Source: Acidimicrobiia bacterium
GTDB taxonomy: Bacteria; Actinomycetota; Acidimicrobiia; IMCC26256; PALSA-610
NCBI GenBank assembly: GCA_036271555.1
Contig: DATBAK010000049.1
Location: forward strand, 1 to 64,000
Direction: 5' to 3'
DNA length: 64,000 nt
Below are positions 8,628 through 27,635 of the stretch, in pieces (position 1 is the first letter of the stretch; each line of letters opens with the position of its first letter). Below the pieces are notes generated by a model. It was not told the origin of the DNA, did no database searches, and saw only the letters and a program-made list of their open reading frames with translations. The position numbers were made by a program, and so were the translations under genes.

Positions 8628-9440
8628 TCAGCGTGGTGGGTCGTCGTCGTCTCGCCAGGCGCGCACGATCGTCGACTGGCTCGCGGTGCCGAGCAACGCG
8701 CCGTCCTCCCCCCAGAGGTGCACCAGCCCGTGACCGAAGCCGTCGGCGATCGCGTGCACGCGTATGTCGGCGAGGACCCAGTCGGTCGGCGCGCGGTGCG
8801 CGACCCGCAGCGTGTTGTCGAGGCTGTTCCCACCCGCGCGCACGCCGAGCGCCTGCGAGATGCCGAACGGCACGTAGTCGCCGATGATCGCGAGGCCCGC
8901 GGCCGACATCTCCGCGAGCCCGGGCATGCGCACCCACAGCGCGGAGTTGCCGTCGCCGGGCGGGCCGGGGAACTCGTCGGGGGAGCGCCCGCGCGCGACG
9001 CGCATGTCGAGCCGCTCGGCGACCGTGCCGTGATGGCGGTGCATCAGCACGCGCGGCGGGCACTCGTCGGGTGGTGGGACGTCGGGACGGTGCGACCATT
9101 GTCCCGACAGCGGGTGCGGGCGCTTGCCGAGCGCGGCGAGCACGGTGAGGATCTCCTGCCCGTCGACGTGCGCGAGCACGCGCACCTGCGAGATCTGATG
9201 CCCGCGCACGATCTCGAGCGCGTCGAGCTCGAGCACCGACGGCGGCCGCGCGTAGGTCAGGTACTGCGCGGTCGCCCACACGAGCGGACGGCCCGTGAGC
9301 TGCTCGGCGGCTTCGATGCACGCGCCGAGCCCGCAGCCACCGAACAGCGCGCCGGTGCCGGAGATCAACCCGTCGACGATCGGCATGCGCCATTTGCCCG
9401 GCGCGCGGGCCTCGAGCCCGAAGAACGTGATCGGATCCAC
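8628..9440 (-). CDS. Acyl-CoA thioesterase, TesB-like double hotdog
   Basis: 270-residue thioesterase-superfamily protein with two hotdog halves. The N-terminal half has LFGGCGLGACIEAAEQ and the VWATAQYLTYARP strand. The C-terminal half has the family motif GNSLDNTLRVAHRA and a GHGLVHLWGEDGALLGTASQS strand. The GTG start is supported by a GGAAGGAT Shine-Dalgarno 6 nt upstream. It lies 13 nt downstream of the sulfatase gene. Substrate unknown; probable hydrolysis of acyl-CoA in the cytoplasm. Confidence 0.8.
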   Translation of the reverse strand: MDPITFFGLEARAPGKWRMPIVDGLISGTGALFGGCGLGACIEAAEQLTGRPLVWATAQYLTYARPPSVLELDALEIVRGHQISQVRVLAHVDGQEILTVLAALGKRPHPLSGQWSHRPDVPPPDECPPRVLMHRHHGTVAERLDMRVARGRSPDEFPGPPGDGNSALWVRMPGLAEMSAAGLAIIGDYVPFGISQALGVRAGGNSLDNTLRVAHRAPTDWVLADIRVHAIADGFGHGLVHLWGEDGALLGTASQSTIVRAWRDDDDPPR

Positions 9441-9453
9441 CGCGATCCTTCCG

Positions 9454-10995
9454 TCAGCGGCGCGGCGCGCGCCGCTCGACGAGTCCCGCGTGGCCGGTGA
9501 GCTTCATCCCGGTGAGCGTGCGTTCCTGGTGGCGCATCCGCCACGTGAGCATGCGCTGCGCGTACGCGAGCACGGTCGACGCGTACGCGGGATCGCTCGC
9601 GCGGTTCAGGATCTGCGCGGGGTCGTCGTCGAGGTCGAAGAAGATCGGTGGCATCCCCGCGAAGTGCACGTACTTGCCGTGGTCGTCGCGCAGCACCGTG
9701 ATCGAGCACTCCTCGAGCGTGAGATCGAACGCGCGCTCGAGGAGGTCGCTGCCGGCGTCGCGGAAGTCGAACTCGAAGTGCACCTCTTCGCGCCACGGCG
9801 CGTCGTCACGCGTGTCGGCATGGAGGAAGTTGGTGAGGGGCCGGCCGTCGCACTGCAAGGGAACGTCGGCGTCGAACAGGTCGAGCAGCGTCGGCAGCAC
9901 GTCGACGTGCTCGGTGTACGCGTTGACCGTCTGACCGCGGCGCGCGTCGGCCTCCGTTCGCGGGTCCCGCACGATCAGCGGCACGTGGTACGACGAGTCG
10001 AACCAGCCGAGCTTGTGCAGGAGATAGTGGTCGCCGAGCATCTCGCCGTGGTCGGACGTCACGACGACGATGGTGCGCTCCGCCTCCCCGGTCGCGTCGA
10101 GATGATCGAGGATGCGACCGATCTGGTCGTCGACCTCGGCCTGCATGCCGTAGTAGGTCGCGCGCAGCTGCCGCAGATGACGCTCGTCGTCGGGACTCGT
10201 GAGGAACGGGTGGTTCACGAGCGCGGCGACGAGCGGGTGCTGCGCGCCCTCGGCCTCGCGGTTCGCCGCGCGCACCGGCATCGGCACGGTCATCGGATCG
10301 AACATCGTGTTGTACGGCTCGGGTGCGTAGAACGGCGGGTGCGGACGCAGAAAGCTCACGTGCGCGAACCAGCCGTCGTGCGGTGCCCGCGCGCGCTCGC
10401 CGTCGACGAACTCGAGCAGCCGGTCGGTGAGGAACGCGGTCTGGCTGTGCTTCGCCGCGTACTTCGTCGGCGCGCGGTGCGGTCCCCACTCGTCGGTTCC
10501 CGTGTACGCGTCGACCGGATGATCGACGAACGCGCGCCAGTCGTCGCCGATGTCGTAACCGTGCTCGACGAGGTACGCGAGCCACAGCTGCGGATCACCT
10601 TCGGGCAGATGGCACACCGCGTCGAAACCCGGCAACACGCCCTCGTAGTGCCGCAATCGCTCGTCGCCCGGCGGCACCGTGCGCGGGTCGACGCTCGTGT
10701 CCGTGTAGCCGAACAATGCCGGTCGGTAACCGAGCTTGCGGAACTCGAGTGCCACGTTCGTGTGGCGGGCGTCGAGTGGCGTGCCGTTGCTCGCGGATCG
10801 ATGATTCATCAGGTACATGCCGGTATACAGCGACGCGCGGCTCGGACCGCACGGCGCGGTCTGCGCGAAGTGACGTGCGAACCGCACTCCGGATGCGGCG
10901 AGCCGATCGAGGTTCGGCGTGCGCACGACCGGGTGACCCGCGCACGAGAGCGAGTCGCCGCGCCACTGGTCCGCGGTCACGAACAGCACGTTCAT
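9454..10995 (-). CDS. Type I sulfatase (CGPSR)
   Basis: Alkaline-phosphatase-superfamily sulfatase, 513 residues. The Cys-type formylglycine motif is C49-GPSR in TAPCGPSRASLYTG, and the first metal aspartate is in FVTADQWRGDSL. The second metal site lies in VVVTSDHGEMLGDH. No signal peptide is seen, so it appears cytoplasmic. Starts at 10995 (MNVLF) and 11001 (GTG, MSMNVLF) are equally possible; the long upstream open frame runs through a hairpin-rich region and is not used. The substrate may be a sulfated or phosphonylated small molecule; unknown. Confidence 0.88.
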   Translation of the reverse strand: MNVLFVTADQWRGDSLSCAGHPVVRTPNLDRLAASGVRFARHFAQTAPCGPSRASLYTGMYLMNHRSASNGTPLDARHTNVALEFRKLGYRPALFGYTDTSVDPRTVPPGDERLRHYEGVLPGFDAVCHLPEGDPQLWLAYLVEHGYDIGDDWRAFVDHPVDAYTGTDEWGPHRAPTKYAAKHSQTAFLTDRLLEFVDGERARAPHDGWFAHVSFLRPHPPFYAPEPYNTMFDPMTVPMPVRAANREAEGAQHPLVAALVNHPFLTSPDDERHLRQLRATYYGMQAEVDDQIGRILDHLDATGEAERTIVVVTSDHGEMLGDHYLLHKLGWFDSSYHVPLIVRDPRTEADARRGQTVNAYTEHVDVLPTLLDLFDADVPLQCDGRPLTNFLHADTRDDAPWREEVHFEFDFRDAGSDLLERAFDLTLEECSITVLRDDHGKYVHFAGMPPIFFDLDDDPAQILNRASDPAYASTVLAYAQRMLTWRMRHQERTLTGMKLTGHAGLVERRAPRR

Positions 10996-11156
10996 CGACA
11001 CGGCCGCAGCTTCGCACGGCGCGGCGCGCGCCGTCCGGTTGGCTCGCCGTACGTGACGGCCGCGACCGTGCGTGCGGTATCCATCGCACGCGCCCGCGGG
11101 CCGCGGTACTGTGCGCGGCGTTACGGCCGCCTTCATCGGGGATTGGTGTCCGTCAC

Positions 11157-11345
11157 TCAACCGTCTGCTGGGCCCCAGTCGGCGGTTGATCGGCGGCTGG
11201 GTTTTACAGCCGCACGCTCGGTGGGCTCCCTGGATCGAACCGCCCGTCGGTCCGGGGAGCCCCCGACCAAACCGGAGGTCACCTCGGTGACCTCCGGAAC
11301 GGAATCGGGCAGGGCGCGTGCTCACAGTTCCGACGCGCCCTGCCC
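11157..11345. other. Array of five hairpins in a divergent intergenic region
   Basis: The roughly 380-nt gap between the sulfatase (start 10995, minus) and the SDR (start 11378, plus) holds no convincing gene. It does contain five consecutive inverted repeats. They are TCAACCG/CGGTTGA (11157-11189) enclosing CTGGG/CCCAG; GCGGCTG/CAGCCGC (11193-11213); a 16-bp stem at 11223-11262 with two G-T pairs and an 8-nt loop; CCGGAGGTCACC/GGTGACCTCCGG (11272-11297); and GGGCAGGGCGCGT/ACGCGCCCTGCCC (11307-11345). CGGAAC near 11295 could alternatively pair with GTTCCG at 11327-11332. None is followed by a T tract. Confidence 0.75.
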
Positions 11346-11377
11346 ATATTCCTGGTCGTGCTCGCTAGCGTGCGCGC

Positions 11378-12199
11378 ATGGCGGCACTGCTGGCGGATCG
11401 GGTCGCGGTCGTGACCGGGGGTGGGGGCGGCATCGGTCGCGGAGTCGCGACGAAGTTCGCCGCGGAGGGCGCGCGCGTCGTCGTCGCGGAGATCGACGAG
11501 ACGCGCGCCCACGAGACCGTCGCGGCGATCGCGGGTGATGGCGGCATCGCGATCGCGGCGGTGCTCGACGTCACGACATCGGACGGCGCGACGCGCGCCG
11601 TCGACGCGGCAGTCGACGAGTACGGGCACATCGACGTGCTCGTGAACAACGTCGGGCACTTCGGCGGCGCGCGCAGGGCGTTCCACGAGAACACCGACGA
11701 AGAGTGGGACGACCTCTACCGCGTCAATCTCGCGCACGTGCTCGGCGCGTCACGCGCCGCGATCACGAAGATGCTCGAACAAGGCGGCGGCGGCAGCATC
11801 GTGAACGTCTCGACGATCGAGGCGTTTCGCGCGATCCCGACGCGCGCGGTGTACTCCGCATTCAAGGCCGCGATCACGGGCTTCACGCGCAGCGTGGCGG
11901 TGGAGTACGCACGCGACGGCATCCGCGTGAACGCGATCGCACCCGATGTCGTCGAGACGTTGCAGGTGCCGTACTCGCGCTGGGTCAAGCCCGAGCAGGA
12001 GCACATGGTGCCGACGTGGGTGCCGCTCGGTCGGTTCGGTCAGCCCGCCGACGTTGCCGACGTCGCGCTGTTCCTCGCGTCGGATCTCTCGCGCTTCGTC
12101 ACGGGCACGACCGTGCCCGTCGACGGCGGCACGTTCGCGGCCGGCGGTTGGTTCCCGACCGAGGAAGGCGGCTGGACCAACCGCCCCCGCCGACCCTGA
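11378..12199 (+). CDS. Short-chain dehydrogenase/reductase
   Basis: NAD(P)-dependent SDR oxidoreductase of 273 residues. The nucleotide-binding motif is TGGGGGIG (13-20), the structural motif NNVG (90-93), and the catalytic residues are Ser145, Tyr159 and Lys163 (YSAFK). The C-terminus ends with the usual VTGTTVPVDGG cofactor-loop segment. A D40 after the second strand (VVAEID) suggests NAD rather than NADP preference. TAGCGT (11366-11371) lies 6 nt before the ATG, so the message is probably leaderless. Substrate unknown. Confidence 0.9.
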   Translation: MAALLADRVAVVTGGGGGIGRGVATKFAAEGARVVVAEIDETRAHETVAAIAGDGGIAIAAVLDVTTSDGATRAVDAAVDEYGHIDVLVNNVGHFGGARRAFHENTDEEWDDLYRVNLAHVLGASRAAITKMLEQGGGGSIVNVSTIEAFRAIPTRAVYSAFKAAITGFTRSVAVEYARDGIRVNAIAPDVVETLQVPYSRWVKPEQEHMVPTWVPLGRFGQPADVADVALFLASDLSRFVTGTTVPVDGGTFAAGGWFPTEEGGWTNRPRRP

Positions 12200-12244
12200 A
12201 ACGCGCGGCCCGCCCGACCCGGCGCTGACCCGCGGGCTGAGGCG

Positions 12245-13489
12245 TCAGGAGCGGTGAGCGTGAGCGAGCGCGACCGGTAGACGCGTGAGGCCGCGCAGCA
12301 CGACGCGGCCGTTGTAGACGAGCGGCTCGCCGGTGAGCTCGATGTCGGGGAAGCGGCGCACGAGGCTGCCGATCGCGACCTGACCCTCGAGCCGCGCGAG
12401 CGCGGCGCCGAGGCAATGGTGGAAGCCGCCGCCGAACGCGACGTGCTCACCCGCGTTCGGACGGCCGAGGTCGAGCGTGCCGGCGGTCGGGCCGAAGTGC
12501 TCGACATCGCGGTTCGCGGATGCGAGCGAGGTGAGCACGAACGAGCGCGCCGGGATCGTGCGCCCACCGATCTCGACGTCGACGAGCGTGATCCGCCGTG
12601 ACGCGGTCACCGGCCCGTCGTAGCGCAGCAGCTCGTCGATCGCGTTCACGTCGAGCGTGGGGTCGTCGGCGAGGCGTTCGAGCTCGGCGCGGTTGCGCAT
12701 CAGCGCGAGCATGCCGTTGCCGATCAGGTTCACGGTCGTCTCGTGACCGGCGACGAACAGCAACAGCACCTGGTCGATGAGCTCTTGCTCGGTGAGCCGG
12801 TCGCCTTCGTCCTCGGCGGCGAGCAGCGCGCTCAGTAGATCGTCGGCCGGGTGCGCGCGCTTCCACACGAGCACCTCGCGCACGTACGCCGTCATCGCGT
12901 CGCCCGCCGCGAGCGCGGTCACGAACTCCTCGTCGGTGAGGACCGGGTCCAGCGTCTTCACGAGGTCGCCCGACCACGTGCGCAGCTGCACGCGGTCCTG
13001 GCCCTCGGGCATGCCGAGCAGGTCGGAGATGACGGCGAAGGGGAGTGGGAACGCGACGTCGCCGATGATGTCGAGCACGTGCGCGTCGCGCGCGAGCGCG
13101 TCGTGCAAGAGGTCGTCGACGAGCTGTTGCGCGACCGGCCGCAGGTTCTCGACGACACGCGGCGTGAACACCTTCGCGACGAGCCGCCGCAATCGATGGT
13201 GATCGGGTGGGTCGAGGTTGAGCATCGCCCGGCTGCCGCTGCTGCGATTGCCGGTCAGCTCCTCGCGCTCGGCGTTCTGGAGCGCGGGCGGGATGTCGGC
13301 CTTCGCGTCCTCGACCGAGAGGGTCGGGTCCCGCAGCACGCGCAGCACGTCGTCGTAGCGGAACAGGATCCAGGTGCCGATCGGCGAGAAGTGCACCGGC
13401 TCCTGCTCGCGGAAGTCGGCGAGCGTGGGGTACGGGTCGGCGGCGAAAGCGGGGTCGAACGGGTTGAAGACCGGCTGCTCGACGACCAT
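12245..13489 (-). CDS. Cytochrome P450
   Basis: Bacterial class I P450 of 414 residues. The heme-binding loop is FGGGFHHCLG (352-361) with Cys359 as thiolate ligand, the I-helix oxygen-binding motif is AGHETT (247-252), and the ExxR motif is in the K-helix (DELLRYD). The start at 13489 (MVVEQPVFNPF) is supported by TACCGT (reverse of 13496-13501) 6 nt upstream. It is divergent from a TetR regulator. No ferredoxin or reductase gene is adjacent, so electrons must come from elsewhere. Its last codons overlap a 20-nt string shared with 2719-2738. Confidence 0.94.
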   Translation of the reverse strand: MVVEQPVFNPFDPAFAADPYPTLADFREQEPVHFSPIGTWILFRYDDVLRVLRDPTLSVEDAKADIPPALQNAEREELTGNRSSGSRAMLNLDPPDHHRLRRLVAKVFTPRVVENLRPVAQQLVDDLLHDALARDAHVLDIIGDVAFPLPFAVISDLLGMPEGQDRVQLRTWSGDLVKTLDPVLTDEEFVTALAAGDAMTAYVREVLVWKRAHPADDLLSALLAAEDEGDRLTEQELIDQVLLLFVAGHETTVNLIGNGMLALMRNRAELERLADDPTLDVNAIDELLRYDGPVTASRRITLVDVEIGGRTIPARSFVLTSLASANRDVEHFGPTAGTLDLGRPNAGEHVAFGGGFHHCLGAALARLEGQVAIGSLVRRFPDIELTGEPLVYNGRVVLRGLTRLPVALAHAHRS

Positions 13490-13521
13490 GCGGGCACGGT
13501 AACCACCGCCCGCCGGAGCGT

Positions 13522-13539
13522 CGACGTGACGTCGGTCAC
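13522..13539. promoter_or_regulatory. Candidate operator between P450 and tetR
   Basis: Two interleaved palindromes, CGACGT-G-ACGTCG (13522-13534) and GTGAC-GTCG-GTCAC (13526-13539), sit at the expected -35 position of the leaderless P450 promoter (-10 at 13496-13501). Confidence 0.45.
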
Positions 13540-13577
13540 TCGAATTCCTCAACCTCTGCCCACGACGTGCCGAAGAT

Positions 13578-13598
13578 AGTTGCACTATGGCTGCAAGT
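13578..13598. promoter_or_regulatory. Second inverted repeat between P450 and tetR
   Basis: TTGCA (13580-13584) and TGCAA (13592-13596), extended to AGTTGCA/TGCAAGT with one mismatch, in an AT-richer stretch. It could be another binding site for the adjacent TetR protein. Confidence 0.35.
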
Positions 13599-27593: not shown

Positions 27594-27635
27594 CCATTTG
27601 CGCGATGTGTCCAAATGGAAGCAACGCGCAAATGG
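27594..27635. terminator. Convergent-gene hairpin with alternative pairing
   Basis: CCATTTGCGCG (27594-27604) pairs perfectly with CGCGCAAATGG (27625-27635). A central CCAAATGG (27611-27618) can instead pair with CCATTTG of the left arm. It lies between the ends of the thioesterase (plus) and the MFS gene (minus) and probably ends both transcripts. No T tract. Confidence 0.6.

Follow-up and report, generated by a model that had tools for sequence, protein, structure and literature searches.

The analysed DNA, here called the window, is a stretch of 64,000 nucleotides from a member of the Acidimicrobiia. The gap described below is bounded by the start of a sulfatase gene at 10995 on the minus strand and by the start of a short-chain dehydrogenase (SDR) gene at 11378 on the plus strand. 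The surrounding block at 8628-13585, with thioesterase, sulfatase, SDR, (CPBP protease) and P450 genes, recurs across family members; in genomes G001, G003 and G008 the sulfatase faces a Lon-like gene instead, as judged by reading. The genome of the window is referred to as G000. The features of the locus are as follows.

9454..10995, minus strand: sulfatase, divergent gene (Pfam PF00884, E 8.2e-51)
11107..11112, plus strand: TACTGT, candidate -10 box of an RNA gene, with a predicted 5' end at ~11119-11121
11157..11189, plus strand: H1, 5' hairpin seen in the window but in none of the relatives
11191..11216, plus strand: H2, 5' hairpin, window only
11218..11266, plus strand: H3, conserved hairpin with CCGCCCGTCG (11240-11249) in the loop region
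11272..11297, plus strand: H4, hairpin with its shape kept and its sequence free
11307..11345, plus strand: H5, G+C-rich hairpin of 13-14 bp, probable 3' end or terminator without a U-run
11366..11371, plus strand: TAGCGT, putative -10 box for the SDR gene, its first T lying 12 nt upstream of the ATG, predicted to give a leaderless mRNA
11378..12199, plus strand: SDR, downstream gene (Pfam PF13561, E 1.5e-62)

The five consecutive hairpins that a sequence-only reading had reported in the gap were confirmed at 11157-11345. That reading gave stems of 12, 13 and 16 bp; the longest (H3, 16 bp including two G-U pairs, plus an outer stem of 4 bp) and the 13-bp stem (H5, perfect in the window) were borne out, and H4 was counted as a perfect stem of 11 bp rather than 12. 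Both strands of 11130-11370 were folded and compared with dinucleotide shuffles, as had been proposed. The minimum free energy of the plus strand was -148 kcal/mol against -105 +/- 5 in 200 shuffles (z -8.37), none of which was as low, and the minus strand gave z -5.75. The plus-strand value lies far beyond chance, which answers the worry that the repeats arise by chance at this G+C content. When the 64-kb window was scanned in a simple way for hairpins of 10 or more net pairs, with up to one mismatch, two of the 18 hits fell in the gap, side by side. Elsewhere the scan listed a perfect 15-bp hairpin with a 4-nt loop at 2738-2771, which contains GTTCC and is its longest perfect one, and a 13-pair hairpin with one mismatch at 27594-27635, whose arms (CCATTTGCGC...) are A+T-richer than those of the other window hairpins.

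A blastn search of the gap against 100 related genomes returned short matches only, mostly noise, though two of them (in G005 and G002) pointed to the element. In G005, which is of the same family, it stands just upstream of an SDR gene, with a like order of hairpins and largely different stem sequences; an unrelated short hairpin stands at the place of H2. Further loci were found through orthologues of the SDR (58 genomes of the order) and of the sulfatase. The H3-H4-H5 arrangement lies between sulfatase and SDR in G004 and G009, and G002 has H3 only, between the sulfatase and a CPBP-type protease. The element is absent upstream of the SDR orthologues that are closer to that of the window (G001, G003, G007, G008, G011, G013). 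In genome_contigs, a pattern scan picked out 19 stretches, 16 of which were assigned to chance by reading fold and sequence. The three that were genuine in structure and sequence (L099, L104 and L108) carry element sequences identical to those of G009, G004 and G005, and come from records of Actinomycetota bacterium F1-120-MAGs023, Acidimicrobiia bacterium Chersky_683 and Actinomycetes bacterium 336R_metabinner_10. A plasmid search gave no meaningful match to the region.

A covariance model (R1) was built from a structure-blind MAFFT alignment of G004, G005 and G009, with the window left out. It found the window at 11218-11345 as the sole match in the whole genome (68.8 bits, E 5.4e-8, E-values being rough, from a short calibration), and among 58 genomes of the order it also found G012 and G006. 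In the first four-sequence MAFFT alignments the window's 3' arm of H3 was wrongly placed, and the model was therefore used to align this sequence. A match in G013 (L004) was rejected, as it lies inside open frames and is without H5; weak matches in G010 (L117) and on contig C65 of G000 (L119) did not show the structure. The search of related genomes and the test of covariation that the sequence-only reading had suggested thus yielded a conserved, covarying element. Its unit is H3-H4-H5, the last three of the five hairpins; H1 and H2 have no counterpart among the relatives seen.

A second model (R2) detected the element in six of the 14 family genomes at E < 1e-9, and G002 at E 0.94. With stricter filters, the same six were recovered among 395 genomes of the class, and the window's own was the one match among 396 genomes of the phylum; no carrier outside the family was found in these two samples. 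A model of H3 only (R3) gave one strong match (58-69 bits) in each of seven of the 14 family genomes, adding G002 as a clear seventh (58 bits); its next best matches, of ~33 bits and lower, fell on the opposite strand of those sites. By these computations the element is single-copy, with one site per genome. The full element is missing from eight of the 14 family genomes, some of which are incomplete, and it would therefore be dispensable or often lost.

The three helices comprise 50 base pairs. In the R1 alignment 13 of these are changed on both sides, a count reached by 0 of 500 shuffles, and 94.6% of cells are paired against 36-45% when partners are slid by 1-3 columns. In a six-sequence alignment (A6), which was fitted to the model structure and so favours it, and in which two of the six sequences are of one genus, 27 of the 50 pairs show double-sided changes, where shuffles average 12.4. 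Of the cells, 92.1% are paired, a share that falls to 34.5-48.4% once partners are shifted by 1-3 columns, and none of 500 shuffles reaches that pair count or any of five measures. The three-sequence result and the de novo model matches are free of this fitting bias. Doubly compensated pairs in A6 number 8/20 in H3, 14/16 in H4 and 5/14 in H5, and H4 has no invariant pair. Judged from these sequences, compensating mutations have preserved the fold although most of the sequence has changed; structure and conservation are in this respect results of computation. Across the six sequences, G-U cells (23) exceed A-C cells (6; p 0.0023), so the pairs are kept as RNA of the plus strand. The same bias, by which computation also settles the strand, speaks against both a cruciform site in DNA and a sulfatase leader.

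Both the compensatory changes and the preference for one strand strongly support a structured noncoding RNA. Among the candidates that had been put forward for the hairpins, an unannotated structured RNA is favoured by the covariation, the strand bias and the independent detection in relatives; the G-U excess relative to A-C makes a DNA cruciform less likely, and the single copy and the fixed neighbourhood do the same for a remnant of an element.

Little of the sequence is fixed. The first loop of the element, CCGCCCGUCG in H3, and CCGCCCGTCG in the same loop region are invariant in 7/7 genomes. The loop sequences are CCGCCCG in H3 and GUUCCCC or AUCCCCC in H5; the arms of H5 are nearly fixed, and GUUCC occurs in its loop in 5/6. 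A fixed loop, a free spacer and a fixed 3' hairpin would suit a small RNA. An exchange of partners between the last two hairpins had been proposed, and the two motifs are present in the window (CGGAAC at 11295-11300, GTTCCG at 11327-11332). The match is exact in the window alone: G004 and G012 have GGGAC at this site (one G-U pair), the linker of G005 and G009 contains no such motif, and G006 is without the GUUCC loop. Partner exchange is therefore not a conserved feature. Between element and gene, G004 (L040:1340-1480) holds two near-identical hairpin copies with the CAGTTCC loop of H5, and other duplicated G+C-rich units occur there in G009 and G012 (L042, L114).

The gene that follows is the SDR gene in G000, G004, G005 and G009 and a CPBP protease gene in G002, G006 and G012, so that no single downstream gene accompanies every copy. 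Four CPBP-type proteins are Rce1-like by Pfam. The sole CPBP match in G000 (43%) lies on another contig, and this genome has no close CPBP orthologue; CPBP orthologues are present in G001, G007, G008, G010, G011 and G013, genomes where the search did not recover the full element.

Each of the seven downstream genes has a TANNNT box whose first T is 12-15 nt before the start codon, taking for G006 and G012 a start downstream of the first one in the ORF, picked with the -10 box in view, and for G004 and G005 a start chosen by homology. In the window, 22 of 3563 ATG/GTG positions have TANNNT in that place, all positions being counted rather than curated starts. TANNNT is given as the mycobacterial -10 motif in a passage of PMC3898074, and part of PMC3160421 places such boxes ~12 bp before the start in leaderless bacterial genes. 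From the boxes in 7/7 copies, the downstream genes appear to be leaderless and the hairpins appear to lie upstream of their putative promoters. A scan of the region for sigma-70 consensus promoters found none, and a scan of 10900-11450 found no terminator of stem and U-run.

For the RNA itself, TACTGT is the only TANNNT in the 260 nt before H3 in the window and may be its promoter. In the five relatives CATGATG, a post hoc motif that does not fit TANNNT, stands instead 50-148 nt before H3, hence in 5/6 copies (L112 of G004, L111 of G005, L110 of G009, L115 of G006, L114 of G012) and is absent from the window, and 2 of 2000 shuffles give any 7-mer common to 5/6. As a control, RNase P RNA genes were matched in five of six genomes (one being without a match) and had [TC]ANNNT 15-19 nt before the RNA, with C as the first letter in 3/5; CATGAT can thus be a -10 box. 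Because its distance varies, species would differ in the length of the RNA's 5' part. A leader peptide starting at ATGATG was rejected, as the peptides differ and the window has none.

The most likely reading of the hairpins is a small RNA gene, not described before, that belongs to a single family of uncultured actinobacteria, and 11218-11345 on the plus strand is probably the conserved core of an independent single-copy gene of this kind. Independence is suggested by the TANNNT box of each of the seven downstream genes and by the lack of a common downstream gene. Counting against this reading are the missing U-run after H5, the negative scan for a sigma-70 consensus promoter, the eight family genomes that lack the full element and the small set of six sequences. 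In the window the RNA would be ~225 nt long, from ~11120 to 11345, with its own promoter upstream of the hairpins and its 3' end at H5, just before the separate promoter of the leaderless SDR mRNA. H3 would present a fixed pyrimidine-rich loop (the CCGCCCGUCG region), H4 would be a spacer of which only the shape counts, and H5, with its fixed G+C-rich stem and UUCC(CC) loop, would serve as terminator and stabiliser. Such an RNA would most likely act in trans, the exposed C-rich loop or loops, the CCGCCCGUCG loop in the first place, pairing with G-rich stretches of target mRNAs.

A cis-acting leader or attenuator, riboswitch-like, of an SDR/CPBP operon, with H3-H4 as the sensing part and H5 as a switchable terminator, is an unlikely but serious alternative. 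It would explain why the element is co-oriented with and directly upstream of SDR(-CPBP) or CPBP in 7/7 copies, an arrangement that counts against an independent small RNA, and why only 32 nt separate its end from the SDR start in the window. However, the boxes at -12 to -15 in every downstream gene make a hairpin-bearing 5' UTR unnecessary, and this finding moved the idea of an SDR 5' UTR to second place. The distance from element to start also varies from 23 to 201 nt and the adjoining gene differs, the sole alternative pairing proposed is not conserved, and no riboswitch of Rfam matches.

A stack of terminators, or a transcription barrier insulating the divergent genes, is improbable. H5 is very stable, G+C-rich and near-fixed in sequence, and Actinobacteria can terminate at hairpins that lack a U-run; against this, no plus-strand gene that would end here is seen in the window, the terminator scan was negative, and an invariant H3 loop and a covarying H4 would be superfluous for termination. 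Still less credit is due to an element acting as DNA, be it a cruciform, protein-binding palindromes or a mobile-element remnant: perfect inverted repeats and the nearly fixed arms of H5 would fit, but the surplus of G-U over A-C marks one RNA strand as the one under selection, scores of the H3 model are 58-69 bits for the plus strand and no more than 33 for the minus strand, and the element is single-copy. Hardly credible are chance at a G+C content of 70% and a small conserved protein. Long open frames do run across the region, as they do throughout DNA of such G+C, but the fold (z -8.4) and the covariation speak against chance, and no frame is open in all seven loci, the stops falling at differing places.

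The independent small RNA gene, if it is real, represents an RNA family that is new and unmatched in Rfam 15, from a class of actinobacteria that has received little study. The covariation is notably clean for so few genomes. With so small a fixed core, on a scaffold that covaries freely, the loop stands out as the part to examine for targets or a protein partner, and such a gene would show that divergent gaps in these genomes can hide RNA genes. A cmscan with Rfam 15 gave no match to the element in the window region or in six loci, where one chance match fell elsewhere in L114. The model of 6C RNA (RF01066) gave no match at E up to 5 in the region and up to 2 in the six loci; a search for 6C in 58 genomes of the order found none, a weak result, as the control gave 1/14 genomes and none over the cut-off. 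A limited literature search found no paper linking Acidimicrobi with RNA topics. The element is a new candidate structured family, well supported as RNA.

With riboswitches and other cis-regulatory leaders the element shares a structured region upstream of metabolic genes; it differs in lying upstream of the genes' own putative leaderless promoters and in having no fixed downstream gene. A study of 104 motifs reportedly derived candidate structured RNAs from comparative genomics, and the element resembles those candidates in the kind of evidence: it is intergenic, with a covarying structure and no known ligand or target. Nearest in style is 6C RNA, which has two hairpins with loops of six or more C. 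Like the element, 6C RNA is actinobacterial, with G+C-rich hairpins and exposed pyrimidine-rich loops, and part of PMC9569102 describes it as a small RNA said to bind mRNAs via its C-rich loops. By analogy, the element may tentatively be read as a lineage-specific class of small RNA whose invariant CCGCCCGUCG loop, on a covarying stem, acts like the C-rich loop of 6C. The same reading would, with equal reserve, place this class in a part of the Acidimicrobiia where 6C was undetected and in a neighbourhood of lipid or steroid-like metabolism (sulfatase, SDR, P450, thioesterase, CPBP protease). Unlike 6C RNA, the element is longer and has three hairpins, and its loops are CCGCCCG and GUUCC(CC) rather than runs of C.
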